From Candidatus Bathyarchaeota archaeon (lineage in GTDB: Archaea; Thermoproteota; Bathyarchaeia; TCS64): a DNA stretch of 36,667 nt. The first letter of the stretch is position 1, and each line of letters opens with the position of its first letter. Positions 14,677-36,367 of this stretch are shown here, piece after piece. The translations under genes were made by a program, and so were the position numbers. The notes beneath the pieces were generated by a model, which saw only the letters and a program-made list of their open reading frames with translations, did no database searches and was not told where the DNA came from. Where the stretch lies: positions 1-36,667 of the forward strand of contig JAFGHP010000063.1 in NCBI GenBank assembly GCA_016930055.1, written 5' to 3'.

Positions 14677-15873
14677 TTGCCAAAACTGTATATTAGTTGG
14701 GATGAATATAAGAAGAGACTTGAAAGGCTACGAAATTATCTAGCAGAAAAAAAGATGGAAGCTGCTTTAATTACTAATGGTACAAGCATTTTTTATTTAA
14801 CTGGTTTTAATCATATAGTTACTGAACGTCCAGCTGCATTACTGGTACCTCAAGATGGTGAATTAGTTTTTTTTGGACCTTTATTAGAGATTGATCACAT
14901 AAAGTTGAAAACACCCTTAATAAAAATTTCAAAAACCTATCTTGATTATCCAGGTATAAAACATCCAATGGAACTTTTCGTTGAATGGATAAAAGAACTT
15001 GGTTTAAGCAACTCTCATTTAGGAACTGATAATCCTGCTGGTGCAGCTGGTACAAGTGGTTATACTGGTCCATCTTTAGCAGACAAAATGAAGGAAACAA
15101 AATTCACTAACATTGGTTCACTTTTCTGGTCATGGAGATTAGTTAAATCGGAGGAAGAAGTGAATTTAATTAGAGAATCCGCTAAATGGGGCAATCTAGC
15201 ACACCAATTTTTACAAGATTATACTGAACCTGGGTTATGGGATGTTGAAATAAGTCAGATGGCCACTATCGAAGCAACAAGAATTATGAAAAAGACCCTA
15301 GGTCTTGAATGGGAAGCTACTAAAGGAGGTTCACCGTGTAGCGCAGGATTCAGGGGTCAAGTTGGTAAAAAATCAGCTATACCTCACGCTATTGGTACTA
15401 ATACAGTTATCAAAGAGGGAGATGTTCTAGTTACAGGAGCAGGAGCTGATATTGGGGGATATGGCTCAGAATTAGAAAGAACAATGATCGTTGGTAAACC
15501 AAGTAACAAACAGAAAAAACTATTTGATATCATGTGTAAAGCTCAGGAAGCTGCAATTACTGCTTTAAAACCAGGAAATACTTGTGCTGATGTTGATAAA
15601 GCTGCTAACGAAGTTTTCCATAAAGCTGGGGTAGAGTCTTTGGTACGTCATCATACTGGTCATGGAATAGGATTAGGAGGTCATGAACCGCCCTATCTGG
15701 ATCAAGGCAACTCTCAAAAACTGGTTCCTGGTATGGTTGTAAGCATTGAGCCAGGAATCTATGAAATCGGATATGCGGGATTTAGACACAGTGATACTTT
15801 GGTTGTCACTGAAGATGGATGCGAAATTTTAACTTATTACCCACGAGACATAGAATATCTTACAATTCTTTAA
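14677..15873 (+). CDS. M24 family creatinase-like hydrolase (metal ligands mostly lost)
   Basis: A 398-aa protein with the two-domain layout of M24B: a creatinase N-terminal domain (about 1-150) and a pita-bread catalytic domain. It would usually be called Xaa-Pro aminopeptidase/dipeptidase. However, of the five metal ligands only His329 (TGHGIG) and Glu358 (SIEPG) remain. The two aspartates are Gly254 and Glu265 (GSELERT), and the last glutamate is Ser372 (FRHSDT). The residues used by metal-free creatinase, a histidine (His237, IPHA) and glutamates (Glu267 in LERT, Glu358), are present. I infer a metal-independent C-N hydrolase of the creatinase/ectoine-hydrolase type rather than a dipeptidase. 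The start is TTG. Confidence 0.72.
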   Translation: MPKLYISWDEYKKRLERLRNYLAEKKMEAALITNGTSIFYLTGFNHIVTERPAALLVPQDGELVFFGPLLEIDHIKLKTPLIKISKTYLDYPGIKHPMELFVEWIKELGLSNSHLGTDNPAGAAGTSGYTGPSLADKMKETKFTNIGSLFWSWRLVKSEEEVNLIRESAKWGNLAHQFLQDYTEPGLWDVEISQMATIEATRIMKKTLGLEWEATKGGSPCSAGFRGQVGKKSAIPHAIGTNTVIKEGDVLVTGAGADIGGYGSELERTMIVGKPSNKQKKLFDIMCKAQEAAITALKPGNTCADVDKAANEVFHKAGVESLVRHHTGHGIGLGGHEPPYLDQGNSQKLVPGMVVSIEPGIYEIGYAGFRHSDTLVVTEDGCEILTYYPRDIEYLTIL

Positions 15874-16779: not shown

Positions 16780-19329
16780 TTAACCAACTAAAGCATTAAA
16801 GAATAGTTTGAATGTTGCATCAGTTAAAGCTCTTGACTGTGGAGCAAAAGCGTATAATATTACTCGTCCTTGTTTTATTTTTGCTTCTACCATAGCTGCT
16901 TTTCTAGCTAAATGTTCTTCACCTATTAACCATCCACTTTGCATTAAACGTTCTTCAGGATATGTTAATAATGCTTTAATTTTGTCACCATCTGTACCAG
17001 ATTTTACTGCTAATGCTAAGTTTCCCCTCACCAAAATAAGTCCCTTATCTGGCATTCCATAAGCTAATGGGTTTTTATTATCAATGTTTACCCATAGTGT
17101 GCTTCCGGGGCAGTGGAATTTATCAGATTTTAATTCTTTTACAGGGTTGCTTGTCGGTACTTTTAATTGATCCATTCCAAAATCAATTGCTTCGTTTAAA
17201 CATAGAACCGTACCACCAGCCTCTACGAATTCTTTTACTTTACCAACGCCTTCATTTTTTATTCCAGTGATGTATTCTGGTGGATAAACAGGCATAACTG
17301 ATGTTCCTCGGGAACGTTTCTCATAATATTCCTCAAGTTTTTCTCCAGTAATCATTGCTGTAGAGTCGCTTGGGAAAATTAAAACGTCATATTTGTCTTT
17401 TAAACCAGCTTTTACATCTGCATCATGAACTGAAGTATATTCAAAATTATATTGTTCAAGTAACCAACGGTTCCAACCTTCATCCATATTTCCTCCCATA
17501 TAACGTTGATAAATGCCAATCCTCAGTTTCTTTGCTTCATGACTTTTAAATTCTAGAGCTGAAGTTAGACTATAAGTATTAACATTAGATGCTGATGCAG
17601 CTTCTTTAAGTGCTTTTTCAACATTTTTACCATTTGGTATATACCATGATCCAGCAGGGACCATTTCATCTGCAATTTTTATTGGTTCATCTATGCGATG
17701 TACTTTTACTCCTTTAGATAAAAGTATGTTTACTGTTTTGAAACTATTATTTAATCGTCCATCAATTAGCCATCCATTTTTAGAAGGTTCAACTTCACCA
17801 ACTGGAAGAGAAACTTCATTTAGGAGTTTAAACTTCCCAGTTATTGGAACATCGACTTTAATTACATTAACTCCCTTAAACTCAGCCATTGTTTGAGTAG
17901 CAAAATCATAGTTCATCATTGGGATTCCATCTTGGTTCCTAACCCAAACACAATCTCTGTAAAAGGTCCTGTCTAATAAACTAATTATGAAGGATCGTGC
18001 TGTCTGACTTGTGAAAATTACATAACTTCCAGATGGGTAAATTGCATCACCTATTTTGAATTGTTTTTCTGCTATATGTATTTCCACGCTTAATTCTCTA
18101 AGGGTTCGAAGTAATTTATGAGTGGTTACATTATCCCATTGCCCTGGAGGAATTACGAAAGCAAATGGTAATTCGGTTGACCCCTTCCCCATTGCTGAAA
18201 CTGCTTTCTTATACATGTTGGAAAGAATTAATTCACGGTTATTGGCAGCAACTTCAAGAGTTGCTAAACAGGCAGTTTTCTGTCCATCAATTATATTTTT
18301 GAGATGCCACCAACCCCCTTTCCAAGGATGTATGAAGTTTGTTTGTGCTCTATATTCGGGTCGTCCTCGTTGGCTTCCTGTTAATTGGTGATAATGGACG
18401 TAAACTGGAGTAGCCCCTTTCACACTAGCTGTTTCTGTGAACATGCCACATATTCCAAACCAAGGAAAGACTAAGCTGAATCCTGGCATGAAATCTGCTG
18501 GATATGATGAAGCTGATTCAACCCCCGTTATTCCTGATGATTCCATTCTTATAAGCATCTGAGAACCGTAATGTCTTTGCTCTGTCCAGACCAGAGGATC
18601 AACTACCTCGTTTAAGGGATTTGAGTTAGGTGGAACATAAAACCTTGCACCTGTACTTCCCATTTGATGAGTATCTAAAAATGCTTGTGGGAACCACTCT
18701 TTCAGAAAAGTTTTATTCATAATTTTTGTCTCAATCTGAGTTAAAGTTAATGCGTCTCTGTTATTATCGTGACCCACATATTTGTGGTAAAGGTACGGTA
18801 GACTACTTCCTTCATATTCTGTTCCTAAATATTTGTTATACCAGTCAACTGTCATTATTTGTCCATCAGGATTTGCACAAGGATAAAGAAGTAGAACTAC
18901 TTCGTCTCTAATTTTTTTTGTCAAATCATCCTCTTTAGTAATTAATTCATATGCCAACTCAGGACTGACTTGAGTTCCTCCAACTTCTGAAGCGTGGATG
19001 CTCATAGTCATACCGACAACAGCTTTTCCTTTCTCAATAATTTTATCTACATCTTTTTGTTTAAGGGTTTTTGGATGGCTAATACTCCAGCTTTCTTGTT
19101 TTATTTTATCTAGTTTTTGAATATTTTGAGATGAACTAATGAATACTAGAAGCATAGAATTTCCTTCAGTAGTTTTTCCAACTTCTTCCACTTTGATTCT
19201 GTCTGAGTTTTCATTTAAATCCCAGAAATAGTCAACAATTTTATCCCACCTAATAAGAATTTTATCTGTTCCAGGTTTAACACCAAAAAACTCTTCGGGT
19301 GATTTTATCTTCCCAACCAATTCATTCAC
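16780..19329 (-). CDS. M14 family zinc carboxypeptidase-like protein with C-terminal GATase-like domain
   Basis: An 849-aa protein. The N-terminal third is an M14 metallopeptidase: zinc ligands His112 and Glu115 (IHASEVGG), His221 (LDTHQMG), substrate-binding Asn190/Arg191 (NNRD) and general base Glu299 (MFTETAS). The middle is of unknown fold. From about residue 600 a class I glutamine-amidotransferase-like segment follows (KYDVLIFPSD, FVEAGGTVLCLNE). There is no signal peptide, unlike many bacterial relatives, so it appears cytoplasmic. It probably trims C-terminal residues or peptide-like amides from short peptides. It is transcribed alone, convergent with the FTR gene. Confidence 0.85.
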   Translation of the reverse strand: MNELVGKIKSPEEFFGVKPGTDKILIRWDKIVDYFWDLNENSDRIKVEEVGKTTEGNSMLLVFISSSQNIQKLDKIKQESWSISHPKTLKQKDVDKIIEKGKAVVGMTMSIHASEVGGTQVSPELAYELITKEDDLTKKIRDEVVLLLYPCANPDGQIMTVDWYNKYLGTEYEGSSLPYLYHKYVGHDNNRDALTLTQIETKIMNKTFLKEWFPQAFLDTHQMGSTGARFYVPPNSNPLNEVVDPLVWTEQRHYGSQMLIRMESSGITGVESASSYPADFMPGFSLVFPWFGICGMFTETASVKGATPVYVHYHQLTGSQRGRPEYRAQTNFIHPWKGGWWHLKNIIDGQKTACLATLEVAANNRELILSNMYKKAVSAMGKGSTELPFAFVIPPGQWDNVTTHKLLRTLRELSVEIHIAEKQFKIGDAIYPSGSYVIFTSQTARSFIISLLDRTFYRDCVWVRNQDGIPMMNYDFATQTMAEFKGVNVIKVDVPITGKFKLLNEVSLPVGEVEPSKNGWLIDGRLNNSFKTVNILLSKGVKVHRIDEPIKIADEMVPAGSWYIPNGKNVEKALKEAASASNVNTYSLTSALEFKSHEAKKLRIGIYQRYMGGNMDEGWNRWLLEQYNFEYTSVHDADVKAGLKDKYDVLIFPSDSTAMITGEKLEEYYEKRSRGTSVMPVYPPEYITGIKNEGVGKVKEFVEAGGTVLCLNEAIDFGMDQLKVPTSNPVKELKSDKFHCPGSTLWVNIDNKNPLAYGMPDKGLILVRGNLALAVKSGTDGDKIKALLTYPEERLMQSGWLIGEEHLARKAAMVEAKIKQGRVILYAFAPQSRALTDATFKLFFNALVG

Positions 19330-20874: not shown

Positions 20875-21639
20875 ATGAAAATCGAAGAAATACCTGTATC
20901 AGAATTAAGAATAAGTGAGTTTAACATACGGAATACTGTAGAGTTTGGTGACGATGTTGATAATGAATTTGTTAATAATATTGAGACGCAAGGACTGCTT
21001 CAACCACTTGTAGTAAGGAAAAAAGATAATTTTTATGAAATTTTAATTGGTATGCGGAGGTTTTTAAGTCTAAAACAAAAAGGTGCATCTCACATAACTT
21101 GTATAATTAAAGATTTTAATGATGAAGAAGCAATTGATGCAAGTATTAGTGAAAATGTTTTCAGAAAAAATGTTGATCCAGTTACATTGGGTAAATGGAT
21201 TAAAAAAAGGCTTGAGGTAGGCGATATTACATTAAATGAATATTCTAAGATGATTGGTAAATCAAAATCAACTTTAAGTGAATGGTTACGAATGAATGAT
21301 TTAACTAATGATATACAATTAGAAGTTCAAGAAGGCAGAATTCCTTTTATATATGCTTTAAAGATAGCACGAATGGGTTTAACTTCAAATGAAGAAAAAA
21401 TTTTAGCAACTATCTCAAGTGAAGAAGGATTTAACGCTTTTAAGAAAGCAGTTGACAAATTATCTAATGATCATGAAAAGAGAGGTTCTCCTAAAGGTCT
21501 AAAGATTGTTCGTGTGAATTTTGGTTCAGAATCTTCTGAACATGAAAAATTAAAAACTTTAGCTTCCACTAAAGGTTTATCGGTAAGTAAATATTGTTTA
21601 GAAGTTTTAAGGGAACATGTTCGATCATCGAACATTTAA
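20875..21639 (+). CDS. ParB/Spo0J-like DNA-binding protein
   Basis: A 254-aa protein. Residues 1-85 form a ParB N-terminal domain with PLVVRK, IGMRRF (the GERR nucleotide/CTP box, with Met for Glu) and, at 93-102, ENVFRKNVDP (the ENxxR box). Residues about 115-145 form a helix-turn-helix (EYSKMIGKSKSTLSEWLRM). The C-terminal 45 residues (VNFGS...SVSKYCLEVLREHV) look like a ribbon-helix-helix rather than the usual leucine-zipper dimeriser. It has no ParA neighbour here. Roles could be chromosome or plasmid-derived segregation, or transcriptional control. Its last codons contain a 19-bp palindrome (21617-21635) found again at 29571. Confidence 0.85.
   Translation: MKIEEIPVSELRISEFNIRNTVEFGDDVDNEFVNNIETQGLLQPLVVRKKDNFYEILIGMRRFLSLKQKGASHITCIIKDFNDEEAIDASISENVFRKNVDPVTLGKWIKKRLEVGDITLNEYSKMIGKSKSTLSEWLRMNDLTNDIQLEVQEGRIPFIYALKIARMGLTSNEEKILATISSEEGFNAFKKAVDKLSNDHEKRGSPKGLKIVRVNFGSESSEHEKLKTLASTKGLSVSKYCLEVLREHVRSSNI
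21617..21635. repeat. 19-bp palindrome, copy 1 (possible ParB-type site)
   Basis: ATGTTCGATCATCGAACAT is a perfect inverted repeat with 9-bp arms around a single central C, overlapping the last codons of the ParB-like gene. Its 15-bp core (21619-21633) reappears in reverse complement at 29571-29585, which is the same site because the motif is palindromic. The high-symmetry CG-containing core stands out in AT-rich DNA. Confidence 0.75.
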
Positions 21640-22023: not shown

Positions 22024-22401
22024 ATGAAAAGCTATGTTAAAATTTATGGGCCACCGCTTCTTAAAGCTATAAAAGCATTGGAAAAAATAGCTATTGATAT
22101 GCCTCAAGTTTGTATTATGGATCCATTGATTATGCGGGAAAATTTATTTGCATCAGATGTTATAGCTACTCAATCAACACGCATGGAAAATGTTCTAACC
22201 TATTTTGAAATTGAACCTGAAAGAATGGATTCAATACGATGTGACAACATTATAAGTAAATCTGGTGATACTCTTGGAGATTATGATTTCTTCTTTGAAT
22301 GGTTTAAACAACCAGATAAAGATCAAGTACAGATGCTTATAGAAAAAATAGATGAAGCTTTAGCAGATTTAGGTGTAAAATATACGTTAACAACAAAGTA
22401 A
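22024..22401 (+). CDS. Unknown 125-aa protein preceding the MutL-like gene
   Basis: I do not recognise this protein. It is 125 aa, soluble, with no signal or membrane segment; it begins MKSYVKIYGPPLLKAIKALE and ends in a likely helix (QVQMLIEKIDEALADLGV). It contains two scattered cysteines, without a CxxC. It has its own TATA-like element (ATATATATAA near 21970) and a T-tract after the stop, so it is probably its own transcript. Its position just ahead of the MutL/DUF6754 module suggests, but does not prove, a link. Confidence 0.7.
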   Translation: MKSYVKIYGPPLLKAIKALEKIAIDMPQVCIMDPLIMRENLFASDVIATQSTRMENVLTYFEIEPERMDSIRCDNIISKSGDTLGDYDFFFEWFKQPDKDQVQMLIEKIDEALADLGVKYTLTTK

Positions 22402-22623: not shown

Positions 22624-24456
22624 ATGTCACAAAACAAACCTCAAAAGGATTTATTATATGCTTTAGTAACCGATGTTGGTAGTACAACAACTAAAGCAAG
22701 ATTATTCCATAAAACTAAGGATGAATGGCGTTTTTTAGTTGCTGGAGAAGCACCAACTACAGTAGAAACTCCTTATGAAGATGTAACATTGGGTGTAATA
22801 AATGCAGTAAAAGAAGTTGAGGAATTAACTGGAAAAAAAATTTTAAAACCCGATGGTTCAGGCATTGAAACTCCCTTCAATGGTAAAAGTGGTGTAGATA
22901 TTTACTGTACAACAAGCAGTGCTGGAGGAGGTCTTCAAATGATGGTTGCAGGCTTAATATCTTCAATGACGGCTGAAAGTGCAAACCGTGCTGCATTAGG
23001 TGCTGGAGCTATTGTAATGGATGTGATGGCAGAGGATGATGGAAGAGAGCCTTTCGAGAAAATTAAACAAATTAGAAGTTTACGTCCTGATATGATTTTA
23101 TTAGCAGGGGGGACAGATGGAGGAGCAATTGAACAAGTAATATCGATTGCTGAATTGATTAAAGCGTCAGAGCCAAAAGCGAGACTTGGTGCATCTTATG
23201 CTCTTCCTTTTGTTTATGCAGGTAACAAAGATCTTCATAATACAATCCAAAACATGATGGAAAAATCTTTTGCATTAATTATTGTTGACAATATAAGACC
23301 TGTACTTGAAATGGAGAACACTGAACCAGCAAGAAGAGCAATCCACGAATTATTTATGGAACATGTTATGAGCCACGCACCAGGATATAAAAAATTGATG
23401 CAATGGACAGACATTGATATTATGCCAACCCCCGCTGGAGAAGGTTTAGCTATGCAATTAATAGCTAACACTTATAAACAGAATAGCCTAGGCGTAGGTT
23501 TAGGTGGAGCAACTACAAATGTATATTCTATCGTAGATGGCAGATTTGTTCGAAGCGTAAGTGCTAACCTTGGAATGAGTTATAGTATCTGTAACGTCCT
23601 TAAAGAGGCAACAATTGAGAATATTATGAGATGGTTGCCTTTCGATATTGATCCTGATTATTTAGGAAGCCAATTATCTAATAAAATGATTAGACCAACT
23701 ACTATTCCTCAAACCTTAAAAGATCTTATGACTGAACATTCTGTAGCCAGAGAAGCTTTACGCTTAGGTTTTAACCATCATAAAAGTATTGCAACAAGAT
23801 TAAAGGGTGTTTCGGTATTGAGAACCGTATCAGATATGTTTACTCAAGAACTGGCTGAAACATATATTGATATGATGAAAATGGATATTTTAGCTGGTAC
23901 TGGGGGGCTTTTAAGCCATGCTCCAAGAAGAATTCAATCAATGTTAATATTAACAGATGCATTTCAACCTGAAGGTATAACGAAACTTTATCAAGATAGT
24001 GTATTTATGATGCCCCATCTTGGTGTTTTTAGTACTGTACATCAACAAGCTGCTTGGGAAATTTTTGATAAAGATTGTCTGTTAAGATTAGGAACAGTAA
24101 TTGCCCCTAAAGGAACCGCTCAAGAAGGCAATGAAGTCATGTCAGTTGATTTAGAAATGCCTGATGGTACAGAAATTGAGGAAACAGTGAAATTTGGAGA
24201 TTTAAAACTCATTCCTTTAGCTACAGGATCAGAAGCAAGAGTAACTGTTACTCCTGGTAAAGGTTTTAATATGGGTGCTGAAAAACCGGAAGCACCTGTT
24301 AGAGGTAGGGTTATGGGAGGAGAAGCTGGAATAATTTTGGATGGTAGAGGCAGACCTCTTTGGATTCCAAGTGATAATAATAAGAGGAAAGAGTTACTAT
24401 TAAAGTGGTTCAAAACTTTAGAATTATATTCTAAAGACGTATTGGAGACTTTCTAA
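22624..24456 (+). CDS. MutL-family ASKHA ATPase (glutamate mutase L-like)
   Basis: A 610-aa protein of the MutL/GlmL family, related to actin/hexokinase/Hsp70-fold ATPases. The phosphate-1 loop DVGSTTTK is at residues 17-24, LLAGGTDGG follows mid-protein, and the phosphate-2 loop GVGLGGATTN is at 290-299. In clostridia MutL is encoded between the glutamate mutase subunits and is thought to be a chaperone or reactivator, but no mutase subunit or B12-binding DxHxxG sequence occurs here. Instead it heads a cluster of membrane proteins, so I infer it powers or controls that complex. It ends 12 nt before the next gene. Strong coding, with the typical length. Confidence 0.85.
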   Translation: MSQNKPQKDLLYALVTDVGSTTTKARLFHKTKDEWRFLVAGEAPTTVETPYEDVTLGVINAVKEVEELTGKKILKPDGSGIETPFNGKSGVDIYCTTSSAGGGLQMMVAGLISSMTAESANRAALGAGAIVMDVMAEDDGREPFEKIKQIRSLRPDMILLAGGTDGGAIEQVISIAELIKASEPKARLGASYALPFVYAGNKDLHNTIQNMMEKSFALIIVDNIRPVLEMENTEPARRAIHELFMEHVMSHAPGYKKLMQWTDIDIMPTPAGEGLAMQLIANTYKQNSLGVGLGGATTNVYSIVDGRFVRSVSANLGMSYSICNVLKEATIENIMRWLPFDIDPDYLGSQLSNKMIRPTTIPQTLKDLMTEHSVAREALRLGFNHHKSIATRLKGVSVLRTVSDMFTQELAETYIDMMKMDILAGTGGLLSHAPRRIQSMLILTDAFQPEGITKLYQDSVFMMPHLGVFSTVHQQAAWEIFDKDCLLRLGTVIAPKGTAQEGNEVMSVDLEMPDGTEIEETVKFGDLKLIPLATGSEARVTVTPGKGFNMGAEKPEAPVRGRVMGGEAGIILDGRGRPLWIPSDNNKRKELLLKWFKTLELYSKDVLETF

Positions 24457-24468
24457 GGAGGATTTTAG

Positions 24469-25581
24469 ATGGCATACACACCTGGTTTAAAAGTTAAACG
24501 AATAGATATCTTATCAAAAGAAAGAAGGTTACCTGTAAAAGGAGAAGTTCTTGTTAACCTCGGAGACAAAGTAAATCATCAAACCCTAGTTGCTAGAGCA
24601 TACATTTCTGGAGACCCTACAATAGTAAAAGTAGCAATACATCTCCAAATTGAACCAAACGACATATTTGATTACATGGTTAAAAAAGAAGGAGACAGTG
24701 TAAATAAAGGTGAACCTATAGCAAAATATAGTGGTTTCTTTGGATTAGTAAAGAAAAACATAAATTCACCAGTTAAAGGCAAAATAGAGTCAATATCTCC
24801 CGCAACAGGACAAGTAATTGTTAGAGGAGACCCAATTCCAATAAACTTAAATGCATATATTCCAGGAGAAATTGTACATATTTTAGAAGATGAAGGAGTA
24901 GTTATACAAACTAAAGGAGCAATGATTCAAGGAATTTTCGGTATTGGCGGCGAAACTCATGGAACTCTTAAATTTAAAGTAAATTCACCTGAAGAAACAC
25001 TAGAAGCAAACATGATTACATCTGACGATAAAGACTGTGTTCTAGTTGGTGGTTCTTTCGTAACCCTTGAAGCTCTTAAAAAATCAGTTGAAAATAAAGT
25101 ATCTGGAATCATTGTTGGTGGAATAGGACATCTTGATTTAAAAGAATTTATGGGAAGGGATCTTGGAGTAGCAATTACTGGACAAGAAAACTTGGGAATC
25201 ACTTTAATCGTAACAGAAGGTTTTGGAAAGATGACTATGTCGCATCTGACTTTTGCATTATTGAAAGATTTTGAAGGAAAATTAACCCACATTAATGGAA
25301 CAACACAGATTAGGGCTGGTGTAATGAGACCAGAAATAATAATCCCTCATGAACAAGACATTAAGGAATCTGAGGACATACTTTCAGGAGGTATGATAAT
25401 CGGTACACCTATAAGAATTATCAGAGAACCCTATTTTGGGGTAATTGGAAAAGTCTCAAGTCTACCTGTAAATCTTGTTCAGTTAGAATCTGAATCATAT
25501 GTAAGAATCTTAGAAGCAGAGTTAAACGATGGTAGCATAGTAATGGTTCCTAGAGCTAATGTTGAGATTATTGAAGAATAA
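24469..25581 (+). CDS. Conserved protein with barrel-sandwich and KOW-like segments, paired with MutL
   Basis: A 370-aa soluble protein, starting after a strong AAGGAGG ribosome site. Residues about 10-120 show the alternating glycine-rich beta pattern of barrel-sandwich hybrid (lipoyl/RnfC-like) domains (VNLGDKVNHQTLVARA, GDSVNKGEPIAKYSG, SPVKGKIESISPATGQVI) but lack the DKA/MKM lysine, so modification is not expected. The middle has a GIIVGGIGHLDLKEFMG segment. The last 60 residues resemble a KOW/SH3-like barrel (GVIGKVSSLPVNLVQLESES). It is co-transcribed with the MutL-like ATPase and could link ATPase action to the membrane proteins downstream. The function is unknown. Confidence 0.7.
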   Translation: MAYTPGLKVKRIDILSKERRLPVKGEVLVNLGDKVNHQTLVARAYISGDPTIVKVAIHLQIEPNDIFDYMVKKEGDSVNKGEPIAKYSGFFGLVKKNINSPVKGKIESISPATGQVIVRGDPIPINLNAYIPGEIVHILEDEGVVIQTKGAMIQGIFGIGGETHGTLKFKVNSPEETLEANMITSDDKDCVLVGGSFVTLEALKKSVENKVSGIIVGGIGHLDLKEFMGRDLGVAITGQENLGITLIVTEGFGKMTMSHLTFALLKDFEGKLTHINGTTQIRAGVMRPEIIIPHEQDIKESEDILSGGMIIGTPIRIIREPYFGVIGKVSSLPVNLVQLESESYVRILEAELNDGSIVMVPRANVEIIEE

Positions 25582-25606
25582 TTCTATTTTTTATTTTTTG
25601 ATTTTT
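25582..25606. terminator. T-rich tract between convergent genes
   Basis: Three successive T-runs follow the stop of the barrel/KOW-like gene and overlap the 3' end of the minus-strand membrane gene. This would end the MutL transcript on the plus strand. Confidence 0.35.
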
Positions 25607-25968
25607 AAATAACATCTTGCTCCTAATGCTGCACCTATTACAAAACAAAATAAGGACAATAATGATTCAAACTCTAACATTTCAATTCTAAGCAAAAATA
25701 CGAGTAAAACATAAACTATATACGAAAGGAGACCTGTAGTAATTCCCGCTTTTTGATAAACTTCACCAGTTTTTCTTGATATTAAATATCCTGCAACAAA
25801 ACTTCCTAATAAAATAATAATACTTAATAAAAAAATATAAGGGAAAAGTATTTGATTTAAAACTTCTTGACGATAAGAATTGAGAATAAATGAAGGTACA
25901 TTAGACAGGATAATTCCAGCAATATAATAGCTAAATTTTATTTTATTAACTTCATTTTTTGTATTCAT
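25591..25968 (-). CDS. Small four-helix membrane protein
   Basis: A 125-aa protein with four predicted membrane segments: about 12-30, 38-62, 74-93 and 100-118. GSFVAGYLISRKTGEV and GAALGARCYLKIKK show glycine-rich turns with positive cytoplasmic ends. No known family is apparent. It is inserted in the opposite orientation inside the MutL/DUF6754 cluster, so it is probably not part of that operon. Confidence 0.6.
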   Translation of the reverse strand: MNTKNEVNKIKFSYYIAGIILSNVPSFILNSYRQEVLNQILFPYIFLLSIIILLGSFVAGYLISRKTGEVYQKAGITTGLLSYIVYVLLVFLLRIEMLEFESLLSLFCFVIGAALGARCYLKIKK

Positions 25969-26063
25969 TTTGCATCATTAATTAAACTAATCTAGGTTAA
26001 TTAACCTTATAATAAGTTTTTTAAGATTAATTATTTACAATATATATTAGTGAGGTGTTATCA

Positions 26064-26345
26064 ATGGAGGGTTTTGTCTGGAAACATTCTTCAGAAGAGG
26101 AGATGGATGAAACAATTAAAAAAATTGCTGATTATATTAAAAAGTATAAATTAGAAACTGCTGCAATGCTTGTTTTTGGTACTGTAAAACCTTTAACACC
26201 AATGGGGGGTCCTCTTTCAAGAATTTTTTTAGCACCTTGGTTTCATTTAGCAGGAATAGATACCCATCATATTATTAATACTCTTGAAGAACCCAAAAAC
26301 ATAGAAAAACTTTTAGATATTTTAGAAAAAAATGCAAATTCATGA
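26064..26345 (+). CDS. Unknown 93-aa protein within the MutL/DUF6754 region
   Basis: Unrecognised. GAGGTG (26052-26057) lies six bases before the ATG at 26064, so I prefer that over the in-frame GTG at 26055. The protein begins MEGFVWKHSSEEEMDETIKK; a helical first half leads to ETAAMLVFGTVKPLTPMGGP, which could be a membrane-associated hairpin, and then a short charged helix. It is co-oriented with the DUF6754 gene 100 nt downstream and may be a small accessory subunit. Confidence 0.6.
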   Translation: MEGFVWKHSSEEEMDETIKKIADYIKKYKLETAAMLVFGTVKPLTPMGGPLSRIFLAPWFHLAGIDTHHIINTLEEPKNIEKLLDILEKNANS

Positions 26346-26444
26346 AATGTTATTCAAATAACCTAAATTTATGTATATCTTATTAATAATTACTGCCAAA
26401 TTTTAAATATTAAAAAAGTGTTATTCAAATGGTAGATTGTAAAA

Positions 26445-27239
26445 ATGATAGCCTTAAAAACAGGAAGGTTATGGGATCTACTAATCTTTGCATCCTTTTT
26501 AATACTAATATTATATTACATGGATAAAGCTAGTAAAGGCAAACCCTTACCCAAAATTAGGACTATTGCTGCTCTTGAAGCTATAAAAGAAGGAATTGGT
26601 CGTGCTGTTGAAATCAGGAAACCAGTTCACTTCTCTTTTGGTGCTTACGGGGCATATTTAACTGGTGATGCTGTTAGTGAAACGGTTGCGGCTGTAGGTG
26701 TTTTAGGATATACTGCAGGACAAGTAGCTAAACTTGGTGCACGTTTAATCTTCCATCTGCCTCAACAACCTTATGCAATTCCCTTACTTGAGGGAGCAGT
26801 CGACGAAGCTTACATGAAAGAAGGTAAAGCTGGTGAATGGAATAAAGCAGCTGACATGCGTTTCTATGGTTACGGAACAATGGTACACACTTCAGCTATG
26901 GCTTCAAGTATGACAGCAGATGGTGTAGCAATGAATGTAATGGTTGGTAGACAAACTACAATTGTATATCCTGCAATGGAAGCTGCAAAGCTACAAGGTG
27001 CAATTAATATTGGCGGAACAACAAGATGGACTGCGATGTATATCTTTGCCCTAACATGCGATTATCTCTTCATAGGTGAAGAAATATACGCAGCAGGCGC
27101 AAAGGTAACAGAAAATCCCTACATGATTGCTAGTATTGCAGTTGAAGAAATAATGAAATATGCAGCTATGGGAGTAGTTGCTCTTGCACTTGTACTTGGA
27201 CTTGCGGGATTTGATATAGTGAGTTTCTTTAAAATGTGA
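26445..27239 (+). CDS. DUF6754 membrane protein
   Basis: A 264-aa protein matching DUF6754. One membrane segment at about 9-25 (LLIFASFLILILYYM) is followed by a large conserved glycine- and alanine-rich region (HFSFGAYGAYLTGD, MVHTSAMASSMTADGVAM, AINIGGTTRWTAMYIFA) and a C-terminal membrane segment (about 237-256). The middle region has short hydrophobic stretches that may re-enter the membrane. The family has no known function and in other genomes is, to my knowledge, found near MutL-like genes. Here it heads a tight four-gene run of membrane proteins. Confidence 0.78.
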   Translation: MIALKTGRLWDLLIFASFLILILYYMDKASKGKPLPKIRTIAALEAIKEGIGRAVEIRKPVHFSFGAYGAYLTGDAVSETVAAVGVLGYTAGQVAKLGARLIFHLPQQPYAIPLLEGAVDEAYMKEGKAGEWNKAADMRFYGYGTMVHTSAMASSMTADGVAMNVMVGRQTTIVYPAMEAAKLQGAINIGGTTRWTAMYIFALTCDYLFIGEEIYAAGAKVTENPYMIASIAVEEIMKYAAMGVVALALVLGLAGFDIVSFFKM

Positions 27240-27251
27240 GGTGAAAAATGA

Positions 27252-27908
27252 ATGTCAACTTTTTTTAAAAAGGATTTACCAACCCTTATTATAGCTGTCT
27301 TAGGTTTTTCAGTGTTAGCAGAATGGTTTTTACCAATTCAACAATTAACAGATTTGAAATCTTTTTTAAGCTTAACAACAACTTTAATCACCTATGGTTC
27401 TTTTGGAATAGGTACAGTATATGCTTTAACAGCTGAATATACTGCAGTAAAGCGTAATAGAAATATCCAGCAATACTTGATTTCCGGAAGTTTCTTTGCA
27501 ATAATAATTATAATGACAGCTATTTGTGTAATGTACGGTGGTTTAAGAGCCTTCTATAATCCAGAATACAGATGGTATCAATACAATCTCTACTCCCCTC
27601 AATCACAAGCAATGTATGCTGTAATGTTTCTATTCCAATGCGGTTCATTATATAGAGTTCTAAGATTACGTAATATGGAATCCACAGTTCTAATAATTGC
27701 GGGTGTAACCTTTATTTTAAGTCAAATACCTTTATTCGCTTCATTCGTTCCAGGCGTAGATTTCCTTGGTGGATGGATGGCTGACGCACCTTCTCTAGGT
27801 GGTACAAGACCAGCAAACATTACCGCAGCTATAGGCGCAATAGTCGTTGCTATAAGAGCATTGATTGGTAGAGAACAAACAACAATGGAGACTGTAGGTG
27901 GTGGTTAA
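27252..27908 (+). CDS. Multi-spanning membrane protein of the DUF6754 cluster
   Basis: A 218-aa protein with about six hydrophobic segments: near 12-28, 38-58, 80-98, 122-138, 145-165 and 188-205. Between segments 3 and 4 lies an aromatic loop (YNPEYRWYQYNLYSPQ). No enzymatic motif or known transporter signature is visible. It starts 12 nt after the DUF6754 stop with GAGGTG upstream, and its stop is 1 nt before the next ATG, so the genes are translationally coupled. Confidence 0.7.
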   Translation: MSTFFKKDLPTLIIAVLGFSVLAEWFLPIQQLTDLKSFLSLTTTLITYGSFGIGTVYALTAEYTAVKRNRNIQQYLISGSFFAIIIIMTAICVMYGGLRAFYNPEYRWYQYNLYSPQSQAMYAVMFLFQCGSLYRVLRLRNMESTVLIIAGVTFILSQIPLFASFVPGVDFLGGWMADAPSLGGTRPANITAAIGAIVVAIRALIGREQTTMETVGGG

Positions 27909-27909
27909 A

Positions 27910-28857
27910 ATGACAGAAAAAAAAGAAAACAGTATATGGGATAAACTAGGTCTAATAGATTACAGAATTATCTATGCGACCTTCATTATCTTGTTAGCAA
28001 CTCCAGTCATCTACCCTCTTGGTTTACCAATGACTGTTAGTCAACCCGTAAGATCTTATTATGATGCAATAGTGAACCTACCACCAAATAGCGTGATATT
28101 AATGCACAGTTTTGTTGACTTGAGCGTGTGGGCAGACACAGGACCAATCCTTATAGCTACCTGGAAAATCATATGGGACATACCTCAATCAAAAAATATC
28201 TCAATAATTGCTTATACTTCGGTAAATGATGGTGCAATAAAAATGGATGATCTCTTAAAGGGAGAATTAAAACCTCCCCAATGGAGAATTGATTCCTATG
28301 GGTATACTTGGATGGACATTGGATATATAAGTTTACCAAATGAACCCATGTTAGCAGCATTCGCAGCTGACTTCACAGCTGTTTCTCGTGATGACCATCA
28401 CATATATGATATAGGTTCAGAATTTGCAGGCAGTCCACTTTTAGATGTTCCATTAGCTAAATGGGTTGCTTCAAGACGTGGAGATCCGAATGTACTTAAC
28501 GCATACGACTTCGATTTATATATCTATGGTTCATGGGGGTGTACCACTCCTGATATGTATGTAAGACAATGGTGGACTACTGGTAGCCCCTCTTATGAGT
28601 TAAAAGCATTGTTTATGACAATAGGTAACTGCATACCAAATACAGTACCATATTATGGCCCTAATAACGCAATTTTAGGTTATGTTCCAGGATCAGCTGG
28701 AGCTGCTGCATTAGAAATTTTATCAGGTCATTTAGGTAAGGGCGCTGTTATGGCAGACATGGCGAACCTTGCAGGAATTGGTACAGTATTCTTCTTAGTA
28801 CTTGGCAATCTATCTTATCTTGGTAAAAAATACTTTGAAAAGAAAGAGGAGGAATGA
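27910..28857 (+). CDS. Membrane-anchored protein with large extracytoplasmic domain (DUF6754 cluster)
   Basis: About 315 aa. I start at ATG 27910, six bases after GGTGGTGG; an in-frame GTG lies 12 nt earlier. A membrane segment (about 16-36) and a C-terminal one (about 280-300) bracket some 230 residues with no long hydrophobic stretch. That domain has mixed alpha/beta character (SVILMHSFVDLSVW, NISIIAYTSVNDGAI, FDLYIYGSWGCTTPDMY) with two cysteines and many aromatics. Positive C-terminal KKYFEKKEEE suggests the ends are cytoplasmic and the domain is outside. No known family is recognised; it may bind a ligand or assemble the complex. Confidence 0.7.
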   Translation: MTEKKENSIWDKLGLIDYRIIYATFIILLATPVIYPLGLPMTVSQPVRSYYDAIVNLPPNSVILMHSFVDLSVWADTGPILIATWKIIWDIPQSKNISIIAYTSVNDGAIKMDDLLKGELKPPQWRIDSYGYTWMDIGYISLPNEPMLAAFAADFTAVSRDDHHIYDIGSEFAGSPLLDVPLAKWVASRRGDPNVLNAYDFDLYIYGSWGCTTPDMYVRQWWTTGSPSYELKALFMTIGNCIPNTVPYYGPNNAILGYVPGSAGAAALEILSGHLGKGAVMADMANLAGIGTVFFLVLGNLSYLGKKYFEKKEEE

Positions 28858-28862
28858 TGTAA

Positions 28863-29498
28863 ATGGATTTTTATGCACAAGCTGGTTTAATTGCATCAGC
28901 AATAATGACCCTATGTCAACTATCATTGATATTCGGTGATAACTTTTTCTTTAAATGGAGCACAAGAGTTGTTATTGGATTTAGTGTAGTTCATGCAGCT
29001 GTACAATATGCATATTGGACCGACTATTATGGAGTACAACCTCTATTAAAAGGAGATATTAAGTGGATTATTGGATTAGTGCTTTGTGTAATGATGTATG
29101 GAAGACTTACTTCTAGATATGCATGGATCTCTAAATATCCTATGGGATTACAACTTGGAGTTGGTTTTGGTACAGTAATAATATCAATAGCTAGAACACA
29201 GATATTAGATCAAATTAGAGTAACGATCTCAGAGATACTTGCTGCAGATTCAGCATTTGCACTTTTCAATAGATTATTAATATTACTAGGTGTTATCAGT
29301 GTAATATCTTACTTCTTCTTTACTAGAGAACAAACTGGAGTATTAGGAAGATTATCCTATGTTGGTAGAGCTTTTATCATGTCTTCTATTGCAGTAATTT
29401 GGGCAGGAGACTATATCTGGGCAATGAGTATGATGGCAGGACGTCTACAGTTTCTTATAAAAGACTTCTTCTTTGGATTGTTGCTTGGTGGATCATAA
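28863..29498 (+). CDS. Multi-spanning membrane protein closing the DUF6754 cluster
   Basis: A 211-aa protein with about six hydrophobic segments, for example 6-25, 34-50, 66-82, 95-112, 130-150 and 165-185. Two short polar loops carry RLTSRYAWISKYP and FTREQTGVLGRLS. GAGGAGG precedes the start by about 10 bases and the gene begins 5 nt after the previous stop. It ends the cluster and is followed by a T-tract. No family is recognised; it shares the hydrophobic pattern and size of the 218-aa protein but no clear sequence similarity. Confidence 0.7.
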   Translation: MDFYAQAGLIASAIMTLCQLSLIFGDNFFFKWSTRVVIGFSVVHAAVQYAYWTDYYGVQPLLKGDIKWIIGLVLCVMMYGRLTSRYAWISKYPMGLQLGVGFGTVIISIARTQILDQIRVTISEILAADSAFALFNRLLILLGVISVISYFFFTREQTGVLGRLSYVGRAFIMSSIAVIWAGDYIWAMSMMAGRLQFLIKDFFFGLLLGGS

Positions 29499-34359: not shown

Positions 34360-34932
34360 ATGAATATGGATGCTAAAAAAGATTTGCATATAAGCATTGA
34401 AAATGTTGTCGCTTCTGCGACTCTTGACCAGAAAATTGATCTACTCGCAATAATGAAAGTTTTTAGGAACGTTGAATATCGTCCTAAACAATTTCCTGGA
34501 CTTGTCTTCCGTTTAAAACGCCCAAAAACCGCTACTTTGATTTTTGGCAGCGGAAAAATGGTTTGCACTGGAGCAAAATCTGAGAAACAAGCTCGTAGTG
34601 CAGTAAAGAAAGTTGTACGAGAATTAAAAACGAATGGAATAATTATTTTGGGTAAACCTAAAATTGTTATCCAAAATATTGTTGCTTCTGCAAACTTGCA
34701 TGGAAAAATTGATCTAGAAACCGCTGCTGATATAATGGATAATGTAATGTATGAACCAGAACAATTTCCTGGGCTCATTTTTAGAATGGGTGAGCCAAAA
34801 GTAGTGATGCTACTTTTTGCTAGCGGTAAACTAGTCTGTACAGGTGCAAAGCATGAGGATATGGTTAGGGAAGCAGTAGAGAAACTTCATGATATATTAG
34901 AAGACTATGATCTAATTTATTATGATGAATAG
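34360..34932 (+). CDS. tbp: TATA-box-binding protein
   Basis: A 190-aa TBP with the two direct repeats that form the saddle. Repeat 1 (about 8-92) runs from IENVVASATLDQKIDL through RPKQFPGLVFRL to GSGKMVCTGAKSE. Repeat 2 (about 98-182) runs from IQNIVASANLHGKIDL through EPEQFPGLIFRM to ASGKLVCTGAKHE. The C-terminus carries the acidic tail (EDYDLIYYDE) common in archaea. It binds the TATA box and recruits TFB and RNA polymerase. The start ATGAATATG offers two methionines two codons apart. Confidence 0.97.
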   Translation: MNMDAKKDLHISIENVVASATLDQKIDLLAIMKVFRNVEYRPKQFPGLVFRLKRPKTATLIFGSGKMVCTGAKSEKQARSAVKKVVRELKTNGIIILGKPKIVIQNIVASANLHGKIDLETAADIMDNVMYEPEQFPGLIFRMGEPKVVMLLFASGKLVCTGAKHEDMVREAVEKLHDILEDYDLIYYDE

Positions 34933-34943
34933 GGGGCACAAAA

Positions 34944-35291
34944 GTGTCCAATAAAAATAACCTCGAGCAAAAAGCTCAGAGATTAATCTTTGAATCTGGC
35001 GACGAAGGTATAATGCAGAGTGAACTCTGGAAAAAACTTGGTGTAAGTAGCAGAGAAGGTAGTAGGTTAGCATTAAAATTTGAGCAAAAGGGAACAATAG
35101 AAAGAAGAAAGATACTACATAATGGTAGGTGGAGTTACAAACTGTATAGTAAAAAAGAATATGTTACTTTAGATGTAATAAATGGCTGCCCCTGTATGAT
35201 TTGCGATGAGATCGATAAATGTTTTGAAGGTGGATCAAAAAATCCATTAAGTTGTTATGAATTATCTCAATGGATTTCGCCGAAAAGCTGA
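34944..35291 (+). CDS. TFE-beta-like transcription factor (winged helix plus FeS cluster, hRPC39 relative)
   Basis: A 115-aa protein. Residues 8-70 form a winged-helix domain (GIMQSELWKKLGVSSREGSR, ERRKILHNGRWSYKLY). The C-terminus has a cysteine cluster, Cys82, Cys84, Cys87, Cys93 and Cys104 (GCPCMICDE...KCF...LSC), like the [4Fe-4S] module of archaeal TFE-beta and eukaryotic RPC39. TFE-beta pairs with TFE-alpha to help RNA polymerase melt promoter DNA. The GTG start follows TBP by 11 nt. TFE-alpha is not in the window. A different iron-sulfur wHTH regulator is possible but the domain order and TBP linkage favour TFE-beta. Confidence 0.82.
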   Translation: MSNKNNLEQKAQRLIFESGDEGIMQSELWKKLGVSSREGSRLALKFEQKGTIERRKILHNGRWSYKLYSKKEYVTLDVINGCPCMICDEIDKCFEGGSKNPLSCYELSQWISPKS

Positions 35292-35320
35292 ATAGCTAAT
35301 TCACATTATAGTGCGAAGAC

Positions 35321-36367
35321 ATGGACAAAAGGATCATAGAAATTATAAAATATGGTGCTACTTTCGGGATTCTTTTACTCCTATTCTTTGGTGGAGGAAT
35401 CCTCCTAAAAGGAATTCTAGGTGTAGACTATCCTATGATGGTTGTAGTCTCGGATAGCATGGTACCAACACTTGGCGTAGGGGATTATATTTTTGTAACC
35501 AGTATTCCTGATTTATATAATATAGAAGCTGAACCACAACCTGATGGTGAAATAATTGTATTTTTAAAACCAAATTCTGTTGATGAATATATTGTCCATA
35601 GGGTTATTGATAAAGTAACTAAGAATGGTCAAACATTTTACATTACTAAGGGGGACCACAACTTAGGTGCTGATGCATGGTTTCTATCTCCTGAAAATAT
35701 TATAGGAAGAGTAATAAATCGAGCTCCTCTTCTTGGATATTTTAGTTTATTTATTAAAACTTTTCAAGGATTTGCTTTTGTGGTAATATTGATGGCGTTA
35801 TCCTTTTTTATTGATTATTTAATGCCAAAGAAAAAATATCCTTCAATGGGTAAATTTAATGTTTTTACTTTGATCCCTATTCTTGTTGGCCCAATTGTTT
35901 TAGCAGTATTATGGTTTGTAAGAGACGGGCATATAGGTTATGAATTTTTAGCTGTTGGTAGCTGGTATTTAGCTTCTTTTCTGATGCCTCTTGCTTTTTA
36001 TGATGATGATATGGCTATAATGGTGTGGCTTTATGATTTAGTTTTAGTAATGATTCCCATTTCATGTGATATTGTATATTTAACAACTGGAATAATGCCA
36101 AGCATGTGGTGGTATGTTCAAGGTAGTGTTGTCCCAATAAATTGGTTATTCATGAAGGTTACACCACAGTTCGAGCAAACCTTCTATTTAATTCTACGAA
36201 CGACACTTCCAGGTGTAATTATTTATATTTTAACCCTATTAGCAAAAAGAAAAGGATGGAAACCATTCGTTTCTTTTCATAGATTATTAAGAGGAATATC
36301 AAAAGAAGACATCACTCCACCAGTATCTGATCCCTCAACAACAGATGTAAATCAGCAACAGCTTTAA
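35321..36367 (+). CDS. Archaeal signal peptidase I with long membrane C-terminus
   Basis: A 348-aa membrane protein. After an N-terminal anchor (about 12-34) comes a type I signal peptidase (S26B) catalytic region: Ser46 (VVSDSMVPT), His93 (EYIVHRV, His where bacteria have Lys) and Asp112 (TKGDHN). This Ser/His/Asp arrangement is that of archaea and the ER Sec11 subunit. From about residue 145 the protein adds some 180 residues with about five further membrane segments and a polar tail, unlike the short archaeal enzymes. It removes signal peptides outside the membrane. Its gene follows TFE-beta by 29 nt. Confidence 0.9.
   Translation: MDKRIIEIIKYGATFGILLLLFFGGGILLKGILGVDYPMMVVVSDSMVPTLGVGDYIFVTSIPDLYNIEAEPQPDGEIIVFLKPNSVDEYIVHRVIDKVTKNGQTFYITKGDHNLGADAWFLSPENIIGRVINRAPLLGYFSLFIKTFQGFAFVVILMALSFFIDYLMPKKKYPSMGKFNVFTLIPILVGPIVLAVLWFVRDGHIGYEFLAVGSWYLASFLMPLAFYDDDMAIMVWLYDLVLVMIPISCDIVYLTTGIMPSMWWYVQGSVVPINWLFMKVTPQFEQTFYLILRTTLPGVIIYILTLLAKRKGWKPFVSFHRLLRGISKEDITPPVSDPSTTDVNQQQL

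Follow-up and report, generated by a model that had tools for sequence, protein, structure and literature searches.

The DNA stretch analysed here (the window, 36,667 nucleotides (nt); contig JAFGHP010000063.1 of assembly GCA_016930055.1) comes from a Candidatus Bathyarchaeota archaeon. It carries genes for a MutL-type ASKHA protein and a soluble barrel protein and, further downstream, genes for a small protein (sm93), a DUF6754 protein, two polytopic membrane proteins (M6a and M6b) and a protein with a large domain between two anchors (OUT230) (Table 1). In archaea as well as bacteria, MutL, the barrel protein and sm93 are inherited together with the four-gene membrane module (DUF6754-M6a-OUT230-M6b). 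A preliminary description, made from the sequence of the window alone, had recognized the MutL gene and the barrel-sandwich/KOW protein behind it, both of which the profile searches bore out, but its list of six genes was incomplete, as it overlooked the conserved sm93 gene.

Table 1. Genes of the system and the open reading frame (ORF) lying between them; positions in transmembrane (TM) proteins refer to residues
Feature	Coordinates	Strand	Characteristics
MutL-type ASKHA protein, 610 amino acids	22624..24456	+	Pfam MutL, E 5.8e-115
Barrel protein, 370 amino acids, soluble	24469..25581	+	barrel-sandwich hybrid (RnfC_N/NQRA_N type) in N-terminal half, KOW-like C terminus
Small membrane protein	25591..25968	-	weakly DUF3792/TIGR04086-like
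sm93, 93 amino acids	26064..26345	+	short N-terminal helical part, invariant Pro, hydrophobic middle
DUF6754 protein	26445..27239	+	Pfam E 8.1e-34; TM (9-30), alpha/beta domain (~42-225), TM (225-253)
M6a, polytopic membrane protein	27252..27908	+	about six hydrophobic segments
OUT230	27898..28857	+	TM (22-38), Rossmann-like alpha/beta domain (~49-276), TM (281-318)
M6b, polytopic membrane protein	28863..29498	+	about six hydrophobic segments

The barrel gene starts 12 nt downstream of MutL. Within the membrane module, the spacings are 12 nt (DUF6754/M6a), 1 nt (M6a/OUT230) and 5 nt (OUT230/M6b); the second value is counted from an ATG at 27910, which is possibly the translation start of OUT230 instead of 27898. 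Shine-Dalgarno-like sites precede the barrel gene, M6a, OUT230 and M6b, and sm93 has a good ribosome site (gaggtg). DUF6754 is without a clear ribosome site and therefore probably starts its own transcript. The gap of 863 nt between the barrel gene and DUF6754 holds sm93 and the reverse-strand ORF, and the two halves of the locus are probably separate transcripts in the source genome. Thus, the tight run with spacings of 1-12 nt and good ribosome sites that had been described is real within DUF6754-M6a-OUT230-M6b, but it does not extend across the gap, nor to the start of DUF6754. Co-transcription of MutL with DUF6754, as parts of one tight transcript, is unsupported here, though these genes are contiguous elsewhere.

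Indeed, the linkage of the two halves became obvious from a comparison of genomes, most of which were metagenome bins (misbinning is possible in single cases, but excluded for the pattern as a whole). In three separate searches of 398 genomes across the phylum, full-length MutL, barrel and DUF6754 genes were found in the identical nine genomes (G000, G010, G028, G114, G184, G207, G264, G293, G397), which belong to six families; any further match to MutL or DUF6754 was no more than a short fragment. The probability of an identical nine-genome set is ~1.6e-18 for one pair, if kinship is ignored, and negligible for three sets. Among 61 relatives, the barrel and DUF6754 genes occurred together in 28 and were both missing in 27, with only one of them present in 2 and 4 genomes (Fisher p 7e-11, uncorrected for kinship); several of these exceptions are incomplete bins. 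A scan of named genomes revealed more than 530 stretches encoding the barrel protein in Bathyarchaeota, other archaea and bacteria (e.g., Bacillota, Fermentibacteria, WOR-3, Cloacimonadota, Zixibacteria, Eisenbacteria, Latescibacterota, Hydrothermae), and DUF6754 was present in all 50 barrel-bearing genomes tested, archaeal as well as bacterial. Furthermore, at 12 loci (2 archaeal, 10 bacterial) the six genes are contiguous on the same strand, with DUF6754 within 400 nt after the barrel gene. The pairing of MutL with DUF6754, which the preliminary description had suggested for other genomes, is therefore found far above chance, and MutL, barrel and membrane genes are repeatedly linked in both domains.

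The order of the membrane module is conserved in 82 complete copies, with median gaps of 9.5, 2 and -1 nt. The distance matrices of its subunits, calculated for 64 non-redundant complete modules, correlate with r of 0.78-0.87 (0 of 500 permutations were as high), so the four membrane subunits travel as a unit. Relatives of sm93 lie near the system in Bathyarchaeota, Bacillota, Fermentibacteria and Latescibacterota; of the 81 distinct MutL genes, 27 have such a relative immediately upstream (<250 nt) and 51 have one within 5.5 kb. Judging from this conservation in both domains, sm93 belongs to the system as its seventh component. The reverse-strand ORF, whose relatives can be found near modules in several Bathyarchaeota loci, appears to be an optional accessory at most.

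The membrane module is often present in many copies, and MutL-barrel pairs are few. Up to 15 DUF6754 genes per genome occur in the relatives and 27 in a Bacillota bin (G449), the latter alongside 10 barrel matches, which include fragments. A single barrel gene accompanies six DUF6754 genes in G480 and G487, five in G482 and at least six in G114, G184 and G207. Since such one-barrel genomes carry at least five DUF6754 modules, the fixed stoichiometric six-protein complex proposed earlier is unlikely as a general rule. In two rumen/gut bins (L138:13055-18092, L140:13055-18096), four OUT230 genes surround a single set of M6a, M6b and DUF6754, as expected if OUT230 were the variable recognition part.

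The barrel gene lies directly downstream of MutL at 69 of 81 distinct MutL genes, and its product shows ~50% identity between archaea and bacteria. Among 53 family members scanned, 16 matched RnfC_N (best 5e-8), 4 NQRA_N and 1 KOW; in the window protein itself RnfC_N stays under the Pfam cut-off, and a longer bacterial paralogue matches it at 1e-9. The barrel protein thus has the barrel-sandwich hybrid in common with RnfC and NqrA of the Rnf and Nqr ion pumps, which are likewise soluble partners of a membrane complex. However, it possesses no redox domain (iron-sulfur or flavin) matched by Pfam, and the membrane subunits of the cluster match no Rnf/Nqr family. An Rnf-like redox pump was rejected on these grounds (Pfam, NCBIfam). 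Decayed or altered copies of the gene exist as well: a barrel gene fragment with two internal stop codons (G000:C103:4331-4572) is a decayed third copy in genome G000, and in Fermentithermobacillaceae (L095, L096, L097, L099, L101, L112, L116) two tandem MutL-barrel pairs are located beside an S58 peptidase gene, one of the barrels being longer (~450-510 amino acids) and the two MutLs belonging to separate clades.

The window MutL scores 385 bits against Pfam PF13941 (gathering score 27, positions 2-450) and belongs to the MutL superfamily. It shares the ASKHA fold family over these 450 positions and the phosphate-1 motif with GlmL, but has a C-terminal extension of ~120 amino acids, a constant barrel partner and no mutase in its genome, and its 211.8 bits against the GlmL equivalog model (NCBIfam) lie far below the cut-off of 475. 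Its phosphate-1 motif is intact (TDVGSTTTK). The phosphate-2 motif is GVGLGGATTNVYS, in which the Asp of the bacterial DIGGATTD is gone. Comparison of 84 MutLs assigned GLGGATTN to the thermoproteotal clade, including the window, and DIGGATTD to the bacterial partners, which retain both catalytic acidic residues. The loss corresponds to one change on the MutL tree (motif columns kept), and eight more thermoproteotal MutLs possess the same motif as the window protein. Binding of ATP by the window MutL is likely; as the phosphate-2 Asp is replaced, the label "ATP-driven" is uncertain for the thermoproteotal lineage. A very divergent MutL paralogue (L038:5578-7362, reverse strand) has DINSHQTK as phosphate-1 motif and keeps the phosphate-2 Asp; it is followed by a shortened barrel-like frame with a stop, and shortened barrels of this kind recur in many family members.

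The AlphaFold2 model of the DUF6754 protein (mean predicted local distance difference test score (pLDDT) 94.9) consists of an alpha/beta domain between two TM anchors. By this model, the protein is membrane-anchored, as had been assumed, but not polytopic. The best Foldseek matches of its domain were MurQ/GmhA (SIS fold; probability ~1.0, E 8e-4). The predicted fold resembles that of SIS-domain proteins (MurQ, GmhA, RpiR), though with a TM-score of only 0.35-0.45, 9-14% identity and membrane anchors on both sides. A Lys/Arg-rich stretch follows right after the first anchor, and bacterial homologues begin like a signal peptide and have ~110 additional residues before that anchor; because of these features, the domain probably faces the cytosol. 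OUT230 was modelled with the same anchor-domain-anchor architecture (mean pLDDT 90.5), and its Lys-rich ends suggest that the domain faces outside, in line with the outside domain between two anchors described before. The OUT230 domain had no significant Foldseek match among PDB structures, its family members share no invariant catalytic motif, and hhalign gave a probability of 36% for homology with the DUF6754 domain. M6a possesses an invariant Glu208 and conserved Arg135 and Arg202; no homology between M6a and M6b was found, and neither these two proteins nor OUT230 belong to a Pfam family.

We tentatively favour the reading that the seven genes encode a transporter-like complex of a new kind, in which a cytosolic energiser or gate is shared, and consider it to have nearly an even chance of being correct. 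M6a and M6b would form the membrane path, with OUT230 displaying its Rossmann-like domain outside and DUF6754 its SIS-like domain inside. The MutL-barrel-sm93 set would dock at the inner face and energise, gate or reset several modules in turn. The job of the complex would most likely be solute movement across the membrane, with different module copies for different substrates; going by lifestyle alone, the best guess is that fermentative anaerobes move small organic solutes related to peptides or amino acids in this way. Energy-coupling factor (ECF) transporters of group II serve as a working analogy: in them, a single energising module is shared by many S components, so that membrane modules of differing specificity draw on one common part. 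However, our system lacks an ATP-binding cassette (ABC) ATPase, EcfT and an S component, and has instead an ASKHA-type ATPase and a large extracytoplasmic alpha/beta domain; in fact, no gene of the cluster matched an ABC ATPase or the cognate transmembrane families (Pfam, NCBIfam). ABC oligopeptide transporters are alike in their proposed job and in their multicopy pattern in fermenters, and have no homologous part. The stronger version of the proposal, a new class of primary transporters in which an ATPase of the actin/Hsp70 (ASKHA) fold and its barrel-sandwich partner energise many interchangeable membrane modules in Bathyarchaeota and at least 10 bacterial lineages (with up to 27 copies per genome), is unlikely on present evidence.

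The link to peptide and amino-acid fermentation is suggestive only. Expansion of module copies occurs in anaerobes for which such a fermentation is predicted, as for Fermentithermobacillaceae (PMC10215811). As to a replacement of ABC peptide transport by the system, the module-richest genomes (G010, G015, G019) contain 0-1 SBP_bac_5 genes, and other genomes hold both SBP_bac_5 genes and modules. Archaeal flanks of the modules are populated by amidohydrolases, M20, S58, M81 and M28 peptidases, aminotransferases and 2-oxoacid oxidoreductases, and the same-genome control was only modestly lower in these families (a coarse comparison on the top 25 families of each list). As this census does not discriminate, the substrate cannot be named from the neighbourhood. 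In several bacterial bins (L122, L125, L131, L137, L144; Fermentibacteria/Aegiribacteria and one other bin), the six-gene run is located directly downstream of glycine cleavage genes.

Several observations speak against the proposed transporter. The sequence-profile search of the PDB found no relatives of the subunits, and none of them has a recognizable relative among transporters. The thermoproteotal MutL clade, to which the window protein belongs, does not have an intact ASKHA active site. Peptidases and amino-acid enzymes beside the modules are not clearly above same-genome controls in archaea or bacteria. Finally, module-bearing genomes also retain ABC peptide-binding proteins (see also PMC10215811).

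Only part of the earlier term "ATP-driven membrane machine" can be kept: the parts behave as one machine, but its drive by ATP is uncertain in the thermoproteotal lineage. Instead, MutL and the barrel protein could help to assemble or reactivate the membrane complex, a service that GlmL-type and other ASKHA activators are believed to render to their enzymes; the complex would then run on an ion gradient or alone. We regard this as possible but rather improbable. The few MutL-barrel pairs for many modules would suit such a role, the characterized members of the MutL family are activators, and the thermoproteotal clade has kept the system although its MutL lost the phosphate-2 Asp, which is easier to reconcile with a nucleotide switch than with a motor. 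However, the strict co-inheritance and the contiguous run in some lineages fit an integral subunit too, and the catalytic acidic residues are both kept in bacterial MutLs. Less probable still is a membrane-bound enzyme or sensor, whose DUF6754 (SIS-like) and OUT230 (Rossmann-like, faintly GT-B-like) domains would bind or convert a ligand and signal or modify the envelope. Both domains are near ligand- or nucleotide-binding folds, a multicopy pattern would suit receptors as well, and no transporter family was matched; but the fold matches are weak (TM-score <0.5), OUT230 has no motif expected of an enzyme that is invariant, and two polytopic subunits and an ATPase would be superfluous for a pure sensor.

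The remaining explanation, that MutL serves, or once served, a B12-dependent glutamate mutase as an accessory and is linked to membrane genes only incidentally, is highly improbable. It could appeal to the Pfam MutL membership and to the sub-threshold GlmL matches, yet the glutamate mutase E subunit (PF06368) gave no match over the cut-off in the source genome and 60 relatives, so that the missing mutase noted before for the window alone holds for whole genomes and MutL should have another job. Moreover, full-length MutL was found only alongside the barrel and DUF6754 genes in the 398 genomes, and the lack of any Rfam match within 19-31 kb means that no cobalamin riboswitch was detected there. 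The role of a glutamate mutase accessory was therefore rejected for the surveyed genomes, as far as sequence can tell.

Outside the system, a gene just upstream of MutL (22024-22401) encodes a 125-amino-acid protein without a Pfam family, relatives of which are also present near modules in L037 and L060. A ParB-type protein (20875-21639; ParB_N, HTH_ParB) has a weak NikA/ribbon-helix-helix-like tail, and no ParA was noticed among the window ORFs. The window also encodes a pyroglutamyl peptidase C15 (8722-9336), an M24 peptidase (14677-15873) and an M14 protein of 849 amino acids (16780-19329). At 34360-36367, a TBP gene is followed by genes for a small winged-helix protein and a signal-peptidase-looking membrane protein, an order repeated in L041.

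No mention of DUF6754 was found in the open literature searched, nor was a MutL- or ASKHA-linked membrane system with these parts in the searchable literature. We are thus dealing with a well-conserved multicopy membrane system of no described function, distributed across archaea and many bacteria. The lineages carrying it dominate anoxic sediments and digesters. As its MutL matches models of glutamate mutase accessory proteins, annotation of the system would be misled. Its definition by seven genes makes the question of function testable under either reading. A transporter role, if true, would make it the first transporter energised by an ASKHA ATPase, to our knowledge, and would help to account for the nutrition of Bathyarchaeota and other uncultured fermenters.

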